Shown piece after piece: positions 35,515 through 41,012 of a stretch of 41,012 nt of DNA. The notes under the pieces are model-generated. The model was not told the DNA's origin, did no database searches, and saw nothing but the letters and a program-made list of their open reading frames with translations. The stretch is taken from contig DVDZ01000043.1 of the NCBI GenBank assembly GCA_015296025.1, positions 1 through 41,012 of the forward strand, read 5' to 3'. Origin of the DNA: Thermosynechococcus sp. M46_R2017_013. Lineage in GTDB: Bacteria > Cyanobacteriota > Cyanobacteriia > Thermosynechococcales > Thermosynechococcaceae. Position numbers and translations under genes: made by a program. The first letter of the stretch is position 1. Every line of letters starts with the position of its first letter.

Positions 35515-35662
35515 GCAACGTTCACTGTGAAGAGCAGCCTGTAGGGAAAATCCAGTGCAAGTCTGGTGCTGTGCCGCAGCTGTGATGGGAAGTCTCCCTC
35601 AGCCAGAATGCCTACTTGCTGTGGTTCACTCTATTTGCCTGCGTCGCACGGGCATGGAGTTT
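35515..35662 (+). ncRNA. Cobalamin (AdoCbl) riboswitch
   Basis: The conserved B12-box core is present: GTAGGGAAAATCCAGTGCAA, GTCTGG, then GTGCCGCAGCTGTGATGGGA, then CAGCCAGAATGCCTAC. GTAGG pairs with CCTAC to close the core, and the TCCAG/CTGGT hairpin matches P3. Downstream, GCC TGCG TC GCA C GGGC forms a hairpin just before the cbiX start, suited to translational control through the loop-loop contact. Outer limits are approximate; the core is 35541-35616. It should repress cbiX when adenosylcobalamin is abundant. Confidence 0.88.
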
Positions 35663-35667
35663 CTAAG

Positions 35668-36687
35668 GTGCTGGTTACGCTTAACGATTCAATTCTCAAT
35701 TCCTTCGGTTTTAGTCTGGACTTACCCCCCCTCCCTCAGTCTCGACCTCTTTTACTGGTTGGTCATGGAACCCGCGATCCTGAAGGTCGCCAAGCATTTT
35801 TGGACTTTGCCCAAGCCTACTATCAACTAGATCCCTGTCGGCCTGTTTTTCCCTGTTTTCTGGAGTTAACTGAACCCTCCATTGTTGAAGTTCTCAGTCA
35901 GTGCGTTGCCACAGGCCATACGGATTTATCGGTGCTGCCGATTTTGCTCTTTGCCGCTCGCCACAATAAGTTTGATGTCACGAATGAATTGGATCGGGCA
36001 CGGCGTGCTTTTCCTGAGTTGCGCTATCACTATGGCCGTCACTATGGCATTGCCCCAGAAATTCTAACGCTGTGGCGATCGCGCCTTGAACTCTTGGACA
36101 CTCCGGAATTTAACCCCCAAGCCATTGGCCGCGAAGAAACAGTTCTCCTAGTCGTGGGACGCGGTTCCAGTGATCCCGATGCCAATGGCGATGTCTTTAA
36201 GCTCGCCCGCATGCTCTGGGAAGGCAGTGGCTACAAAACGGTTGAGGTGTGCTTTATCGGCATTACCCATCCCCGCCTACCTGAAGGGTTTGTACGTGCC
36301 AATCTTCACCAGCCTCGTCGTGTCATCGTCCTGCCCCACTTCATGTTTACAGGGGCGCTGGTCAAAAGAATTTACACCCTGACTACAAAAGCGCAAGCAG
36401 CCTATCCCCATGTTGAATACGTGAACTTACCGGAAATTGGCTTGCATCCACAACTGTTTTACCTAACACGACAGCGGGAAATTGAAACCCATGTCGGGCA
36501 GGTAGTGATGAACTGTGAGACCTGTAAATTTCGCTTGGTGGCAGGCCAGACTCATCACCACCACCATCATCACTATGAGCACCACTCCCATAGTCATAAT
36601 CACGAGGATCACCCTCATCACCATGGATCAACGGTAAATTTGGATCATTTGCCCAGTTATCACCAACGCATTTGGCAGGTGCCCTAG
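35668..36687 (+). CDS. cbiX: Sirohydrochlorin cobaltochelatase CbiX with His-rich tail
   Basis: Class II chelatase inserting cobalt into sirohydrochlorin for B12 synthesis. The 339-aa long form contains two CbiX/SirB-like halves: [20 protein letters not shown] near residue 30 with [14 protein letters not shown], and [19 protein letters not shown] near 165 with [18 protein letters not shown] metal-storing tail, [20 protein letters not shown], lies near residue 290, followed by a short acidic/aromatic end. A Cys pair (NCETCKF) precedes the tail and could bind metal or an Fe-S cluster. GTG at 35668 is preferred because the ORF-track start lies inside the riboswitch. Regulation by the upstream cobalamin riboswitch supports the cobalt assignment. 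Confidence 0.92.
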
Positions 36688-36761: not shown

Positions 36762-38480
36762 ATGCGTATTAAATATCCTCCCCAAACCGTTGATCGGGTG
36801 TTGATTTTTGATACCACACTGCGGGACGGTGAACAGTCTCCGGGTGCCTCCCTGAATGTGGATGAAAAACTCACAATTGCCCGTCAACTGGCGCGACTAG
36901 GGGTGGATATTATTGAGGCGGGCTTCCCCTTTGCTAGTCCCGGTGACTTTGAGGCTGTCCAGCGGATTGCCGAAACCGTCGGCACCGAAACCGGCCCTGT
37001 GATCTGTGGCTTAGCTCGTGCCACCCGCCAAGATATTGAAGCGGCAGCCAAAGCCCTCAAGCCCGCCTACTATCCCCGCATTCACACCTTTATTGCCACC
37101 TCCGATATTCACCTAGAGTACAAGCTCAAGAAAACCCGCGCTGAAGTACTGGAAATTGCCCCAGAAATGGTGGCCTATGCCAAGTCCTTTGTGGATGATG
37201 TGGAGTTTTCCCCTGAGGATGCTGGTCGTTCAGATCCTGAGTTTCTCTATCAAGTCCTTGAGCGGGTCATTGATGCAGGTGCGACAACGATTAACATTCC
37301 CGACACCGTGGGCTACACCACCCCCACTGAATTTGGTGCCCTGATCAAAGGGATTAAGGAAAATGTGCCCAATATTGATCGCGTGGTCATCTCCGTTCAT
37401 GGTCACAACGATTTGGGTTTAGCTGTGGCCAACTTCCTAGAAGCAGTGAAAAATGGGGCGCGCCAACTGGAGTGTACGATTAACGGCATTGGTGAACGGG
37501 CAGGGAATGCTGCTCTTGAGGAATTGGTGATGGCTCTCTATGTGCGGCGGCAGTACTTTAATCCCTTCTTGGGGCGTCCACCCGAATCAGAAGCACCTCT
37601 CACAAATATCAACACCCGTGAAATTTACAAAACTTCTCGCTTAGTCTCAAACCTAACGGGGATGCTCATTCAACCCAATAAGGCGATCGTTGGTGCCAAT
37701 GCCTTTGCCCATCAATCGGGGATTCACCAAGATGGGGTTCTCAAGCATAAGCAAACCTATGAAATCATGGACGCCCAACTCATTGGTCTTGCTGATAACC
37801 AAATTGTCTTGGGCAAACTCTCTGGTCGTAATGCCTTTGCCACCCGCCTGCGGGAATTGGGCTTTGAACTCAGTGAAACCGAACTCAATAAAGCCTTTTT
37901 GCGCTTTAAGGATCTCGCCGACAAGAAAAAAGAAATCACCGACTGGGATCTCGAGGCGATCGCCAAGGATGAAACCCAAGGGATTGATCTGCGGGGCTAT
38001 CAACTGGAATTTGTCCAAGTTTCCTGTGGAGATCATGCTCGCCCGACGGCAACAGTAACCGTGCGTACCCCCAGCGGCGAAGAATTAACCGACGCAGCCA
38101 TTGGCACAGGGCCTGTGGATGCCGTTTACCGCGCCATTAATCGGGTTGTACAGATTCCCAACCGCCTCATTGAATACTCGGTGCAATCGGTTACCGCTGG
38201 CATTGATGCTATTGGTGAAGTGACGATTCGCCTACAGCACGAAGATCGCATCTATTCAGGTCATGCCGCCAACACCGACATTATTGTGGCCTCTGCCCAA
38301 GCCTACATGAATGCCCTCAACCGCCTCTATCGAGGTCTTGAACAGCGGGCGCTACATCCCCAAGCTAGGTATGCCAGAGTCCACTGCTCAGCCCTTGGAA
38401 ACCAATGGGGTTTATTTATGCCCCGTCTGCCGCCACGGACAAATTGCACCGATGGTACTCATGGATACCTATGCCTGTAA
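36762..38480 (+). CDS. leuA: 2-isopropylmalate synthase (3' end probably frameshifted)
   Basis: First committed enzyme of leucine synthesis, condensing acetyl-CoA with 2-oxoisovalerate. The catalytic TIM barrel shows [15 protein letters not shown] near residue 14, [11 protein letters not shown] near 171, [15 protein letters not shown] near 204 and [20 protein letters not shown] near 230. The regulatory leucine-binding domain is at about 395-530. ATG at 36762 gives the family N-terminus. The natural end is probably after ALHPQA (about 535 aa): TAG at 38366-38368 would be in frame if one base were added at CAAGCTAGG. As given, the frame runs on for about 37 odd residues over the next gene. Confidence 0.93.
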
Positions 38481-38853: not shown

Positions 38854-41012
38854 TTAACTCACTGCTGCTGAGCGAGGGACAAAAGAAGATAACACCGGCA
38901 GATCTTCCATCTGGCTCTGCTTAGCTGCCCGCACTCCGTTAACTACGATACCAACTGCCTTATTCTTTAGCCCTAAATCATACTCCTTGAGTGCTTTGGC
39001 AAACATCTCCCGTTTTGTTTTGTCCAAACGTACCACAAACAGCGCCTGATCCACGCTGGCCACAAGGCGATTCGTTTCTGCACACTGCACCATTGGTGGC
39101 GTGTCAATAATAACCAAGTCAAATGCAACTCGGGCAGAAGTCAAAAACCCATGCCATTGGGGAGAACTCAACAAACTCATTGGTTCTGGGTGCGGTTGCC
39201 CCGCTGTCAGTACCCAAAGTTTTTCAGAGTAAGCTTCAAGACAAGTGAACCAATTAGGTAAAGGAAGCGCCTCTGTCAGTAGCTCAGTGAGACCACCGCT
39301 GTTTACAATCCCGAAAACTTGATGTAGGCCGGGTTGACGCAGATTTGCGTCCACAAGCAAAACTCGCTTACCAGATGCCGCTGCAGCTAGTCCTAAATAA
39401 GCTGCAATTGTTGTCCGCCCCTCTCCTGACTGGGCAGATGTCACGGCCAGCGTGCGCTGAAGACCTAGCTGCTCTAAATGAACCAAAAGAAAATAAAAAC
39501 TCTCCTTAAAAGCGGGTGTTGCCCCTGGCAGATGGTGCTGCAGCCCCCAGAGCGTAAGGGGAGTTTCAAGGCGTGTAAACGAATACTGATCAAACTCCTT
39601 AGCTAGGGGCACTTGTCCAACAATTGAAAGTCGAGTGCTTTGCTGAACTCGTTCAACCTCCAAGAAACGGGAATCCAGCGCATCTAAAATCAAGGCTAAA
39701 ATAACCCCAGAGGTAGTTCCCAAAATTAAAGCAATTGCCAATGCCATTGACAGCCGCATCGTTACTTCATATTCTTCCGCGTTAATATCCGATAGTAACC
39801 GCCATGTAAAATCCTGCTGTGCAATTTGTAGCTGTAGTGATTGCCGCGTCTGAAGCAAAAGTTGCAGTGATTGCTGTGCCGCTGCTATACGTTGCTCAAT
39901 TTTTCGATAGGGGTTTGCTAGGCGTGTCAGTCGGGCTAATTCCTCACGAGTTACTGCGATTTGCCGAGCAAGCTCTGCATCCATGCGTCTCAGGGATTCA
40001 AGCTCAACTTTTGCTTCAATATACTTACTAATCAAATTTTCTGAAACAGAACTTTGATAGCCGATCAATCCCTCTGGATTTGAGACTCGATTTCTTTGGG
40101 CAATCTGCTGAGCCTCCCGCTTAATCTGCTCTAATACTAGGCGTCTTTCTTCATCAAGGCTACGAACAGTAGGAGCATTTGGTTGTAATCTGCTTAACTC
40201 TTCAGCAAGCTTTTTTTCGACACTTGTTAGATTGTTCAATAGGCTAGTATAGTTGACCGATGTACTTAGGTTAGAAGCAACAAGTGCTTCATCAGGGGTC
40301 ATTTGCAACTGTGAATTAATAGAATCAAAAGTCTGCTGTACAGATTCTATTTTGGCAATATTTTCATTTCTTGCGGTCATCAAATTAGCTAGCTGCATTC
40401 GGTACAGATCAGCATCACTAGAGCCACTCGCGCCAATGCCACCTATAGAATCAGGCCTCAATACTTGATTTGCAGCTCGAAACTGGTTCAACTGATCTTC
40501 AAGATCATCAATTTGGCTAAGTGTTCTTTGAATTTCTTGGTTAACGTATCGTAAATTTTGAAAAATTTGCTGCTGCTTTTCTTTTTCATTAAAGTCTATA
40601 ATTTTTTCGGTAAGTAAATTGAAGACAGAATTTAGTTTACCCTTGTTATTAAATGAAAATGTAATTTGAATCACTTTAGAATTGGTGTTACCGAGACGAA
40701 GACCACCAAATTGCTGTGGCTCAATCTTGATACTTCTCCGAAAAGATTCGTAGGTGTAACTTTTAGAGTCTAGCTCAGGATAAGCTTCCAAAAGCTTGTC
40801 ATAGAGGGGTCTAAGCACTAAGTCACTGTTGAGAATCTGTATGAGAGTACTTGTATCGCCTGTTGTTTCTCCTGAAAGAAGGGGCAAACTGGGTATTGAC
40901 TGAATCATACTACTAATTGATCCTGAGCTAGTCCCAGCTCTAGCGCCCAAAGGTTTAATTGCTTCTACCTGCAAAGAAATAATTCGCTGGTAGCTCCTGA
41001 GAAATTGATAGT
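38854..41012 (-). CDS. Wzc/GumC-like polysaccharide co-polymerase with BY-kinase-like domain (5' end outside window)
   Basis: Inner-membrane protein of exopolysaccharide export. The frame stays open to the window edge: the codons before the track's TTG start at 40974 read YQFLRSYQRIIS, so the N-terminus is missing. Visible order is the Wzz-type region, coiled coils (about residues 130-380 of the track ORF), a membrane helix (ALAIALILGTTSGVILALIL) and a C-terminal nucleotide-binding domain. That domain has Walker A TSAQSGEGRTTIA, Walker A' VLLVDANLRQPG and Walker B LVIIDTPPMV. Walker A has Arg where Lys is usual, and the C-terminus lacks the tyrosine cluster of active BY-kinases. The gene has no HIP1 site and its 5' part is AT-rich, unlike its neighbours. 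Confidence 0.87.
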   Translation of the reverse strand, partial: YQFLRSYQRIISLQVEAIKPLGARAGTSSGSISSMIQSIPSLPLLSGETTGDTSTLIQILNSDLVLRPLYDKLLEAYPELDSKSYTYESFRRSIKIEPQQFGGLRLGNTNSKVIQITFSFNNKGKLNSVFNLLTEKIIDFNEKEKQQQIFQNLRYVNQEIQRTLSQIDDLEDQLNQFRAANQVLRPDSIGGIGASGSSDADLYRMQLANLMTARNENIAKIESVQQTFDSINSQLQMTPDEALVASNLSTSVNYTSLLNNLTSVEKKLAEELSRLQPNAPTVRSLDEERRLVLEQIKREAQQIAQRNRVSNPEGLIGYQSSVSENLISKYIEAKVELESLRRMDAELARQIAVTREELARLTRLANPYRKIEQRIAAAQQSLQLLLQTRQSLQLQIAQQDFTWRLLSDINAEEYEVTMRLSMALAIALILGTTSGVILALILDALDSRFLEVERVQQSTRLSIVGQVPLAKEFDQYSFTRLETPLTLWGLQHHLPGATPAFKESFYFLLVHLEQLGLQRTLAVTSAQSGEGRTTIAAYLGLAAAASGKRVLLVDANLRQPGLHQVFGIVNSGGLTELLTEALPLPNWFTCLEAYSEKLWVLTAGQPHPEPMSLLSSPQWHGFLTSARVAFDLVIIDTPPMVQCAETNRLVASVDQALFVVRLDKTKREMFAKALKEYDLGLKNKAVGIVVNGVRAAKQSQMEDLPVLSSFVPRSAAVS

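Follow-up and report, generated by a model that had tools for sequence, protein, structure and literature searches.

The window analysed here, a 41,012-nucleotide stretch that is an entire contig of Thermosynechococcus sp. M46_R2017_013, carries at one end a gene for a Wzc-like protein which is probably a fused BY pseudokinase co-polymerase working without tyrosine phosphorylation. The kind is already known, as fused pseudokinase co-polymerases were reported previously (available text of PMC12004946), while the new elements are the arginine and glutamine stages in place of the Walker A lysine and the fact that an entire genus, which retains the other parts of the machinery, apparently has no intact BY-kinase. 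The preliminary description of this DNA had proposed a non-phosphorylating co-polymerase, and this proposal is now well supported, short of proof: the Walker A lysine, the EX2RX2R arginines and the tyrosine tail are gone, the loss is fixed in a clade, and four orthologues have moved on to glutamine, from which the missing activity would follow.

Architecture and kinase motifs of the Wzc-like protein

The gene comprises 718 codons with no internal stop and its 5' end is open at the contig edge (Table 1); about 75 amino acids of the N-terminus, including the first transmembrane helix, lie outside the window and are visible in the orthologues only. Two transmembrane helices flanking a periplasmic region, as expected of PCP-2a proteins, were recognized by eye, the second in the window and the first in the orthologues, and the co-polymerase and pseudokinase domains form a single chain. 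With the NCBIfam profile of the eps_fam tyrosine autokinases (TIGR01007) the protein scored 104.9 bits, below the curated cut-off of 108.05 that three orthologues exceed, and the orthologue at locus L034 gave a weak match, below cut-off, to the Wzz family of Pfam. In the structure search the protein matched the solved Wzc, CapB, and VpsO structures. The predicted model of the kinase-like domain (mean pLDDT 77) found its best matches in the Wzc and CapB kinase structures (E 4e-17 against Wzc kinase structures; rmsd 1.7 Å to 7nhr), and according to this model the domain retains the Wzc fold.

Table 1. Coordinates of the Wzc-like gene, its motifs and the convergent neighbour in the window
Feature	Position	Strand	Remarks
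Wzc-like PCP-2a co-polymerase with degenerate BY-kinase domain	38854..41010	-	718 aa present; family and structure searches
Second membrane-spanning segment, MRLSMALAIALILGTTSGVILALILDAL	39676..39759	-	links the periplasmic part to the kinase-like domain; by eye
Helix of the EX2RX2R octamer-interface motif, FKESFYFLLVHL, residues 501-512	39475..39510	-	Glu kept, both Arg lost (Tyr, Leu)
Walker A region SAQSGEGRT, residues 525-533	39412..39438	-	Arg532 replaces Wzc Lys540; Mg-ligand Thr533 kept
Walker A' VLLVDANLRQ, residues 550-559	39334..39363	-	Asp554 kept (Wzc Asp562); Asn556 at Wzc Asp564
Walker B LVIIDT, residues 632-637	39100..39117	-	Asp636 kept (Wzc Asp642)
C-terminal tail, residues 694-718	38857..38931	-	without tyrosine
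leuA-like gene, convergent neighbour	36762..38480	+	backbone gene, yardstick of divergence; also the neighbour in G008, G001 and G005

Residue equivalences were taken from an alignment with Wzc of E. coli K-12, to which the kinase domain is 28% identical. Residues 525-534 read SAQSGEGRTT, with Arg532 aligned on Lys540 and Thr533 on Thr541, and the GK[ST] signature with the catalytic lysine of BY-kinases is thus absent. The double aspartate (DxD) of Walker A' is replaced by DAN, the EX2RX2R motif reads ESFYFLL, and no tyrosine follows IVVNGV, the last conserved strand; the Walker B aspartate, Asp636, is present and invariant across both paralogue groups described below. Arginine for lysine in SGEGRTT and the missing C-terminal tyrosine cluster, both pointed out in the preliminary description, are therefore real features of the protein. 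A sequencing, assembly or frame error, or mere chance, was ruled out as the origin of Arg532, because arginine recurs in 17 Thermosynechococcus proteins.

Loss of the Walker A lysine among cyanobacteria

Homologues were collected from 58 relatives and from 244 genomes drawn from the phylum, with a few genomes common to both sets, and an alignment covering the P-loop was made of 147 distinct sequences including that of the window; sequences were taken for the stronger matches only, and the phylum sample is broad and non-exhaustive. A scan of genome contigs gave no match with the single protein as query and eight loci, two of them from Thermosynechococcus, with an alignment as query. At position 532 the 147 sequences have lysine (116), arginine (19), glutamine (9), or threonine (3). 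The lysine is missing in all 21 Wzc-like proteins of the 11 Thermosynechococcus genomes, where arginine stands in 17 and glutamine in four, and arginine also occurs in one genome of a different genus of the same family (G012). Beyond these proteins 116 of 125 homologues keep lysine and a single one (L186) has arginine. Thus, arginine at this position is almost confined to the clade of Thermosynechococcus and G012, and the concern that it might be widespread in active homologues was not borne out.

Neither the EX2RX2R arginines nor a tail with at least three tyrosines is kept in any of the 21 Thermosynechococcus proteins, and the second Walker A' aspartate is lost in paralogue group A, while the Mg-ligand Thr/Ser533, Asp554, and Asp636 are present in every member of both groups. 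Among the 116 lysine-type cyanobacterial homologues, asparagine in Walker A' (30) and a tail with none or one tyrosine (28) occur too, and the second arginine of EX2RX2R is almost absent (1/116). By themselves the loss of tail tyrosines and the Walker A' asparagine prove little, and the missing lysine is the decisive difference, because several of the other losses occur among lysine-type proteins as well. In the four glutamine orthologues the P-loop glycines are lost as well (GQERQTT, GKEGQTT, and GQEGQTT variants), and these genes are still open frames located in the same operon.

Other cyanobacterial Wzc-like proteins that have lost the lysine independently were also recorded, with threonine in L128, L129, and L158, glutamine in L057, L059, L061, and L085, and GEGRTT in L186; all of them have the Walker A' asparagine and none or one tail tyrosine. 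Judging from these residues, pseudokinase co-polymerases seem to arise repeatedly within the phylum. All 30 tree rows without lysine have at most two tail tyrosines, and the coupling of lysine loss to tail loss was not significant after correction for kinship in a sign test that, with just 4-5 independent events, is unable to reach 0.05. A literature search on natural Walker A arginine yielded no relevant report.

Trees were built after removal of the motif and tail columns, from 146 rows and, in a careful version, from 50 rows. The arginine and glutamine proteins of Thermosynechococcus and G012 form one clade with an SH-aLRT of 100 in the larger tree and 100/100 in the smaller one. The stem of this clade is long (1.16), and some contribution of long-branch attraction cannot be fully excluded. 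The clade contains two paralogue groups: group A comprises the window gene and nine further sequences, two of them in genome G008, with the four glutamine forms nested inside, and group B is represented by one copy per genome in 11 of 11 genomes and at most of the loci examined lies beside a gene for a Wza-type exporter. The simplest history, as far as the tree goes, would be one change of lysine to arginine before the split and then one of arginine to glutamine within group A; over the full sample five losses of lysine are required. The loss in question is old and basal to a clade of at least two genera. The tree gives no sign of a foreign origin outside cyanobacteria, as the gene is nested with one from a related genus within its family.

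The second Wzc-like protein of the source genome (G000:C8 29188-31071; L045:17522-19804, minus strand) is a group B paralogue with ADGRTT in Walker A and a shortened C-terminus, and a Wza-type gene is adjacent to it in relatives. A third Wzc-like copy of G008 (L043:8829-11156; AGAGRTT) lies at another site and adjoins AT-rich genes of 32-38% GC, and this site is probably a further polysaccharide locus of that type.

For the kinase-like domain, dN/dS ranges over 0.07-0.16 in the arginine forms of group A, much as in the remainder of the protein, and most pairs within group B give 0.10-0.13. Values are higher in the glutamine subclade, with 0.2-0.43 for the domain and an overall range of 0.12-0.58, and the closest pair there differs by few changes. 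According to these values the kinase-like domain is maintained by purifying selection, most clearly in the arginine forms.

The surface-polysaccharide operon and its neighbourhood

GC content averages 0.439 in the Wzc-like gene and 0.526 over the remainder of the window; within the gene it declines from about 0.50 close to the 3' end to 0.35-0.42 over the 600 bases at the start of the part present. The 2157 bases of the gene contain no HIP1 site where about 3.2 would be expected (P(0) about 0.04), and the remaining 38.9 kb of the window contain 57. This is weak alone, and the scarcity becomes convincing because the operon of relatives contains one HIP1 site in about 10 kb (L034). The AT-rich 5' end and the lack of HIP1 sites noticed earlier are thereby confirmed, and the composition does differ from that of the backbone.

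The genes that would follow past position 41012 can be seen in relatives. In the closest one (G008, L034) the order is glycosyltransferase, asparagine-synthase-like amidotransferase, EpsG-family gene, glycosyltransferase, TviB-type UDP-sugar dehydrogenase, TviC-like epimerase, and the Wzc-like gene last, convergent with leuA as in the window. The EpsG-family, glycosyltransferase, TviB, and TviC-like genes of L034 and L035 identify a polysaccharide operon, the genes of which have 35-49% GC and are nearly free of HIP1, against 51-56% GC for most flanking genes. In the source genome the amidotransferase of the operon sits at the end of contig C31, so that the operon was broken by the assembly.

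The convergent neighbour, which we take from its sequence, read by eye, to be a leuA-like 2-isopropylmalate synthase, serves as a measure of divergence: LeuA proteins are 96-99% identical across Thermosynechococcus with a synonymous divergence of 0.5-0.9 (L211, out of frame, being excluded), whereas identity to the window protein is 51-83% within group A, and synonymous sites are saturated in the more distant pairs. The operon also occupies differing chromosomal neighbourhoods among the genomes compared, and this pattern is that of an exchanged surface-polysaccharide locus. The suggestion that the gene was acquired with a polysaccharide cluster is supported as to the cluster, which in relatives is AT-rich, poor in HIP1, and diverged beyond leuA, but the event looks like an exchange within or near the genus and not like the arrival of a foreign gene.

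Several observations were made in passing. Two strains have fragmented genes in the operon (cited loci, L042:12207-14766 and L037:6689-7988), and it may be decaying there: the UDP-sugar dehydrogenase and one glycosyltransferase are broken up into several ORFs in G002, and G003 has its dehydrogenase in two parts. At 38311-38480 the leuA ORF of the window, with 584 aa, extends beyond its counterparts in relatives (about 547-557 aa) and overlaps the next ORF; the cause may be a frameshift at the 3' end, a different stop or, in part, a start lying further upstream. The stretch 35522-36687 holds a cobalamin riboswitch (Rfam RF00174, 34.6 bits) closely followed by a gene which by eye is presumably CbiX/SirB-like, with a long His-rich stretch near the C-terminus, and the true start of this gene is later than the ORF start at 35566, which falls inside the riboswitch.

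A proposed co-polymerase cycle without tyrosine phosphorylation

In the accepted model, the assembly and disassembly of the Wzc ring are driven by phosphorylation. The octamer of E. coli Wzc is dismantled by phosphorylation of its tyrosine tail, while the K540M mutant, in which phosphorylation is abolished, assembles as a homogeneous octamer and retains the binding of ADP-Mg (PMC8285477, PMC11986026), and the K55M mutant of CapAB likewise contained bound ADP-Mg (PMC3795738). The natural arginine form is therefore expected to be kinase-dead and possibly nucleotide-binding; because the tyrosine tail is missing and the ring contacts are changed, its assembly cycle would have to be driven otherwise. 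The membrane and periplasmic part would assemble around the polymerase of the operon itself (the EpsG-family gene in relatives) and dock on the single Wza-type exporter of the cell, while the cytoplasmic domain with its Wzc fold may still bind Mg-nucleotide and would transfer no phosphate to tyrosine; nor is there a tyrosine tail as acceptor. Assembly and disassembly could then depend, for example, on nucleotide binding and release or on partner proteins, the domain having a putative scaffold role. Kinase activity is presumably lacking, judging from the residues. The alternative raised earlier, that the P-loop may tolerate arginine, survives with regard to nucleotide binding, given the two lysine-to-methionine mutants (PMC8285477, PMC3795738) and the retained Mg-ligand threonine and two aspartates; such binding would be about an even bet for the arginine forms and is unlikely for the glutamine forms with lost P-loop glycines.

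A sub-case of the pseudokinase reading, limited to the arginine forms and given somewhat less than an even chance, is a nucleotide-locked switch, in which ATP or ADP is bound without turnover and the ring stays unphosphorylated and assembled. The K540M octamer (PMC8285477), the ADP-Mg of CapAB K55M (PMC3795738), and the conserved Mg ligands agree with such a lock; however, the tyrosine tail and EX2RX2R contacts that stabilise the Wzc ring are both lost here, and, to judge from the broken P-loops of the glutamine forms, some members of the clade can do without binding.

As for other kinases, a TIGR01007 scan of the 11 Thermosynechococcus genomes, which is blind to unrelated tyrosine kinases, found the Wzc-like proteins, clearly weaker ATPase matches, and no other BY-kinase. 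The strongest remaining match, read in three genomes, is MinD-like with an intact GKGGVGKT, and a weak one in the source genome is Mrp/ApbC-like with GKGGVGKS. A heteromer with an active BY-kinase paralogue was accordingly rejected, no such paralogue having turned up in these 11 genomes. A low-molecular-weight (Wzb-type) tyrosine phosphatase is encoded once per genome in 11 of 11 genomes, and a Wza-type exporter once per genome in the nine scanned. A wider and tentative proposal, rather doubtful at present, is that the whole genus has lost every BY-kinase and that its Wzc-type co-polymerases, with one Wza and the kept phosphatase, run a nucleotide-driven cycle free of phosphorylation, lysine, arginine, and glutamine marking the stages of the transition.

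The kept phosphatase is odd if tyrosine phosphorylation is gone, although Wzb-type phosphatases can have other substrates, and arginine keeps a positive charge that might support slow catalysis. Both points speak against a pseudokinase, and it is conceivable, though improbable, that the arginine P-loop hydrolyses ATP and phosphorylates another protein rather than its own tail, such as the UDP-sugar dehydrogenase encoded in the operon. Arginine is held under purifying selection in 17 of 21 proteins together with Thr533, Asp554, and Asp636, and E. coli is known to phosphorylate its UDP-glucose dehydrogenase on tyrosine (available text of PMC2516531); but loss of Lys540 abolishes phosphorylation in Wzc (PMC8285477), the octamer-interface arginines and the tail are lost, and the four glutamine orthologues with lost P-loop glycines remain open and in the operon. 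Decay of the gene, with the Walker A change as a first sign of pseudogenisation, is very unlikely: the raised dN/dS of the glutamine subclade (few changes in its closest pair) and the operon that looks broken in G002 are outweighed by long open frames in 21 of 21 proteins, the low dN/dS of the arginine forms, and the age of the loss.

The pseudokinase reading can be compared with several known systems. Wzc of E. coli, a PCP-2a BY-kinase, shares the architecture, fold, and polysaccharide setting and differs in Lys540 (Arg/Gln in the window clade), Asp564 (Asn), the EX2RX2R arginines, and the tyrosine tail. The cyanobacterial example Sll0923 of Synechocystis has the motifs that the window protein lacks, and both ATPase and autokinase activity were demonstrated for it (PMC6562117). 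EcpK of Myxococcus and HfsB of Caulobacter likewise have a BY-kinase fold without kinase motifs or tyrosine tail and are proposed to serve a co-polymerase without phosphorylation, but they stand alone beside a separate kinase-less PCP-2, whereas the domains of the window protein are fused in one chain, and EcpK has no Walker motifs at all, while the window protein keeps the Mg-ligand threonine and two aspartates (available text of PMC12004946). The same one-chain layout is found in SMc01795 of S. meliloti, Mlr8439, and VV1_2305, which belong to other phyla and are likened by layout, not by P-loop residues; a genus-wide loss of all BY-kinases is not described for these fused proteins in the available text (PMC12004946, from Cuthbertson et al.). 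CapB1 of S. aureus and PtkB of B. subtilis are natural BY-kinase homologues also reported inactive (PMC3795738); they stand beside the active paralogues CapB2 and PtkA, whereas none was found for the window protein, whose catalytic lysine is gone.

In summary, the phosphorylation switch is apparently missing in every Wzc-like protein found in the thermophilic genus Thermosynechococcus, while the domain is still conserved. Thus, these hot-spring organisms probably run the export of surface-sugar polymers without the usual phosphorylation switch, providing a natural system for asking which functions other than phosphorylation the kinase-like domain has, with the arginine forms, the glutamine forms, and the lysine-type relatives as a graded series for testing.
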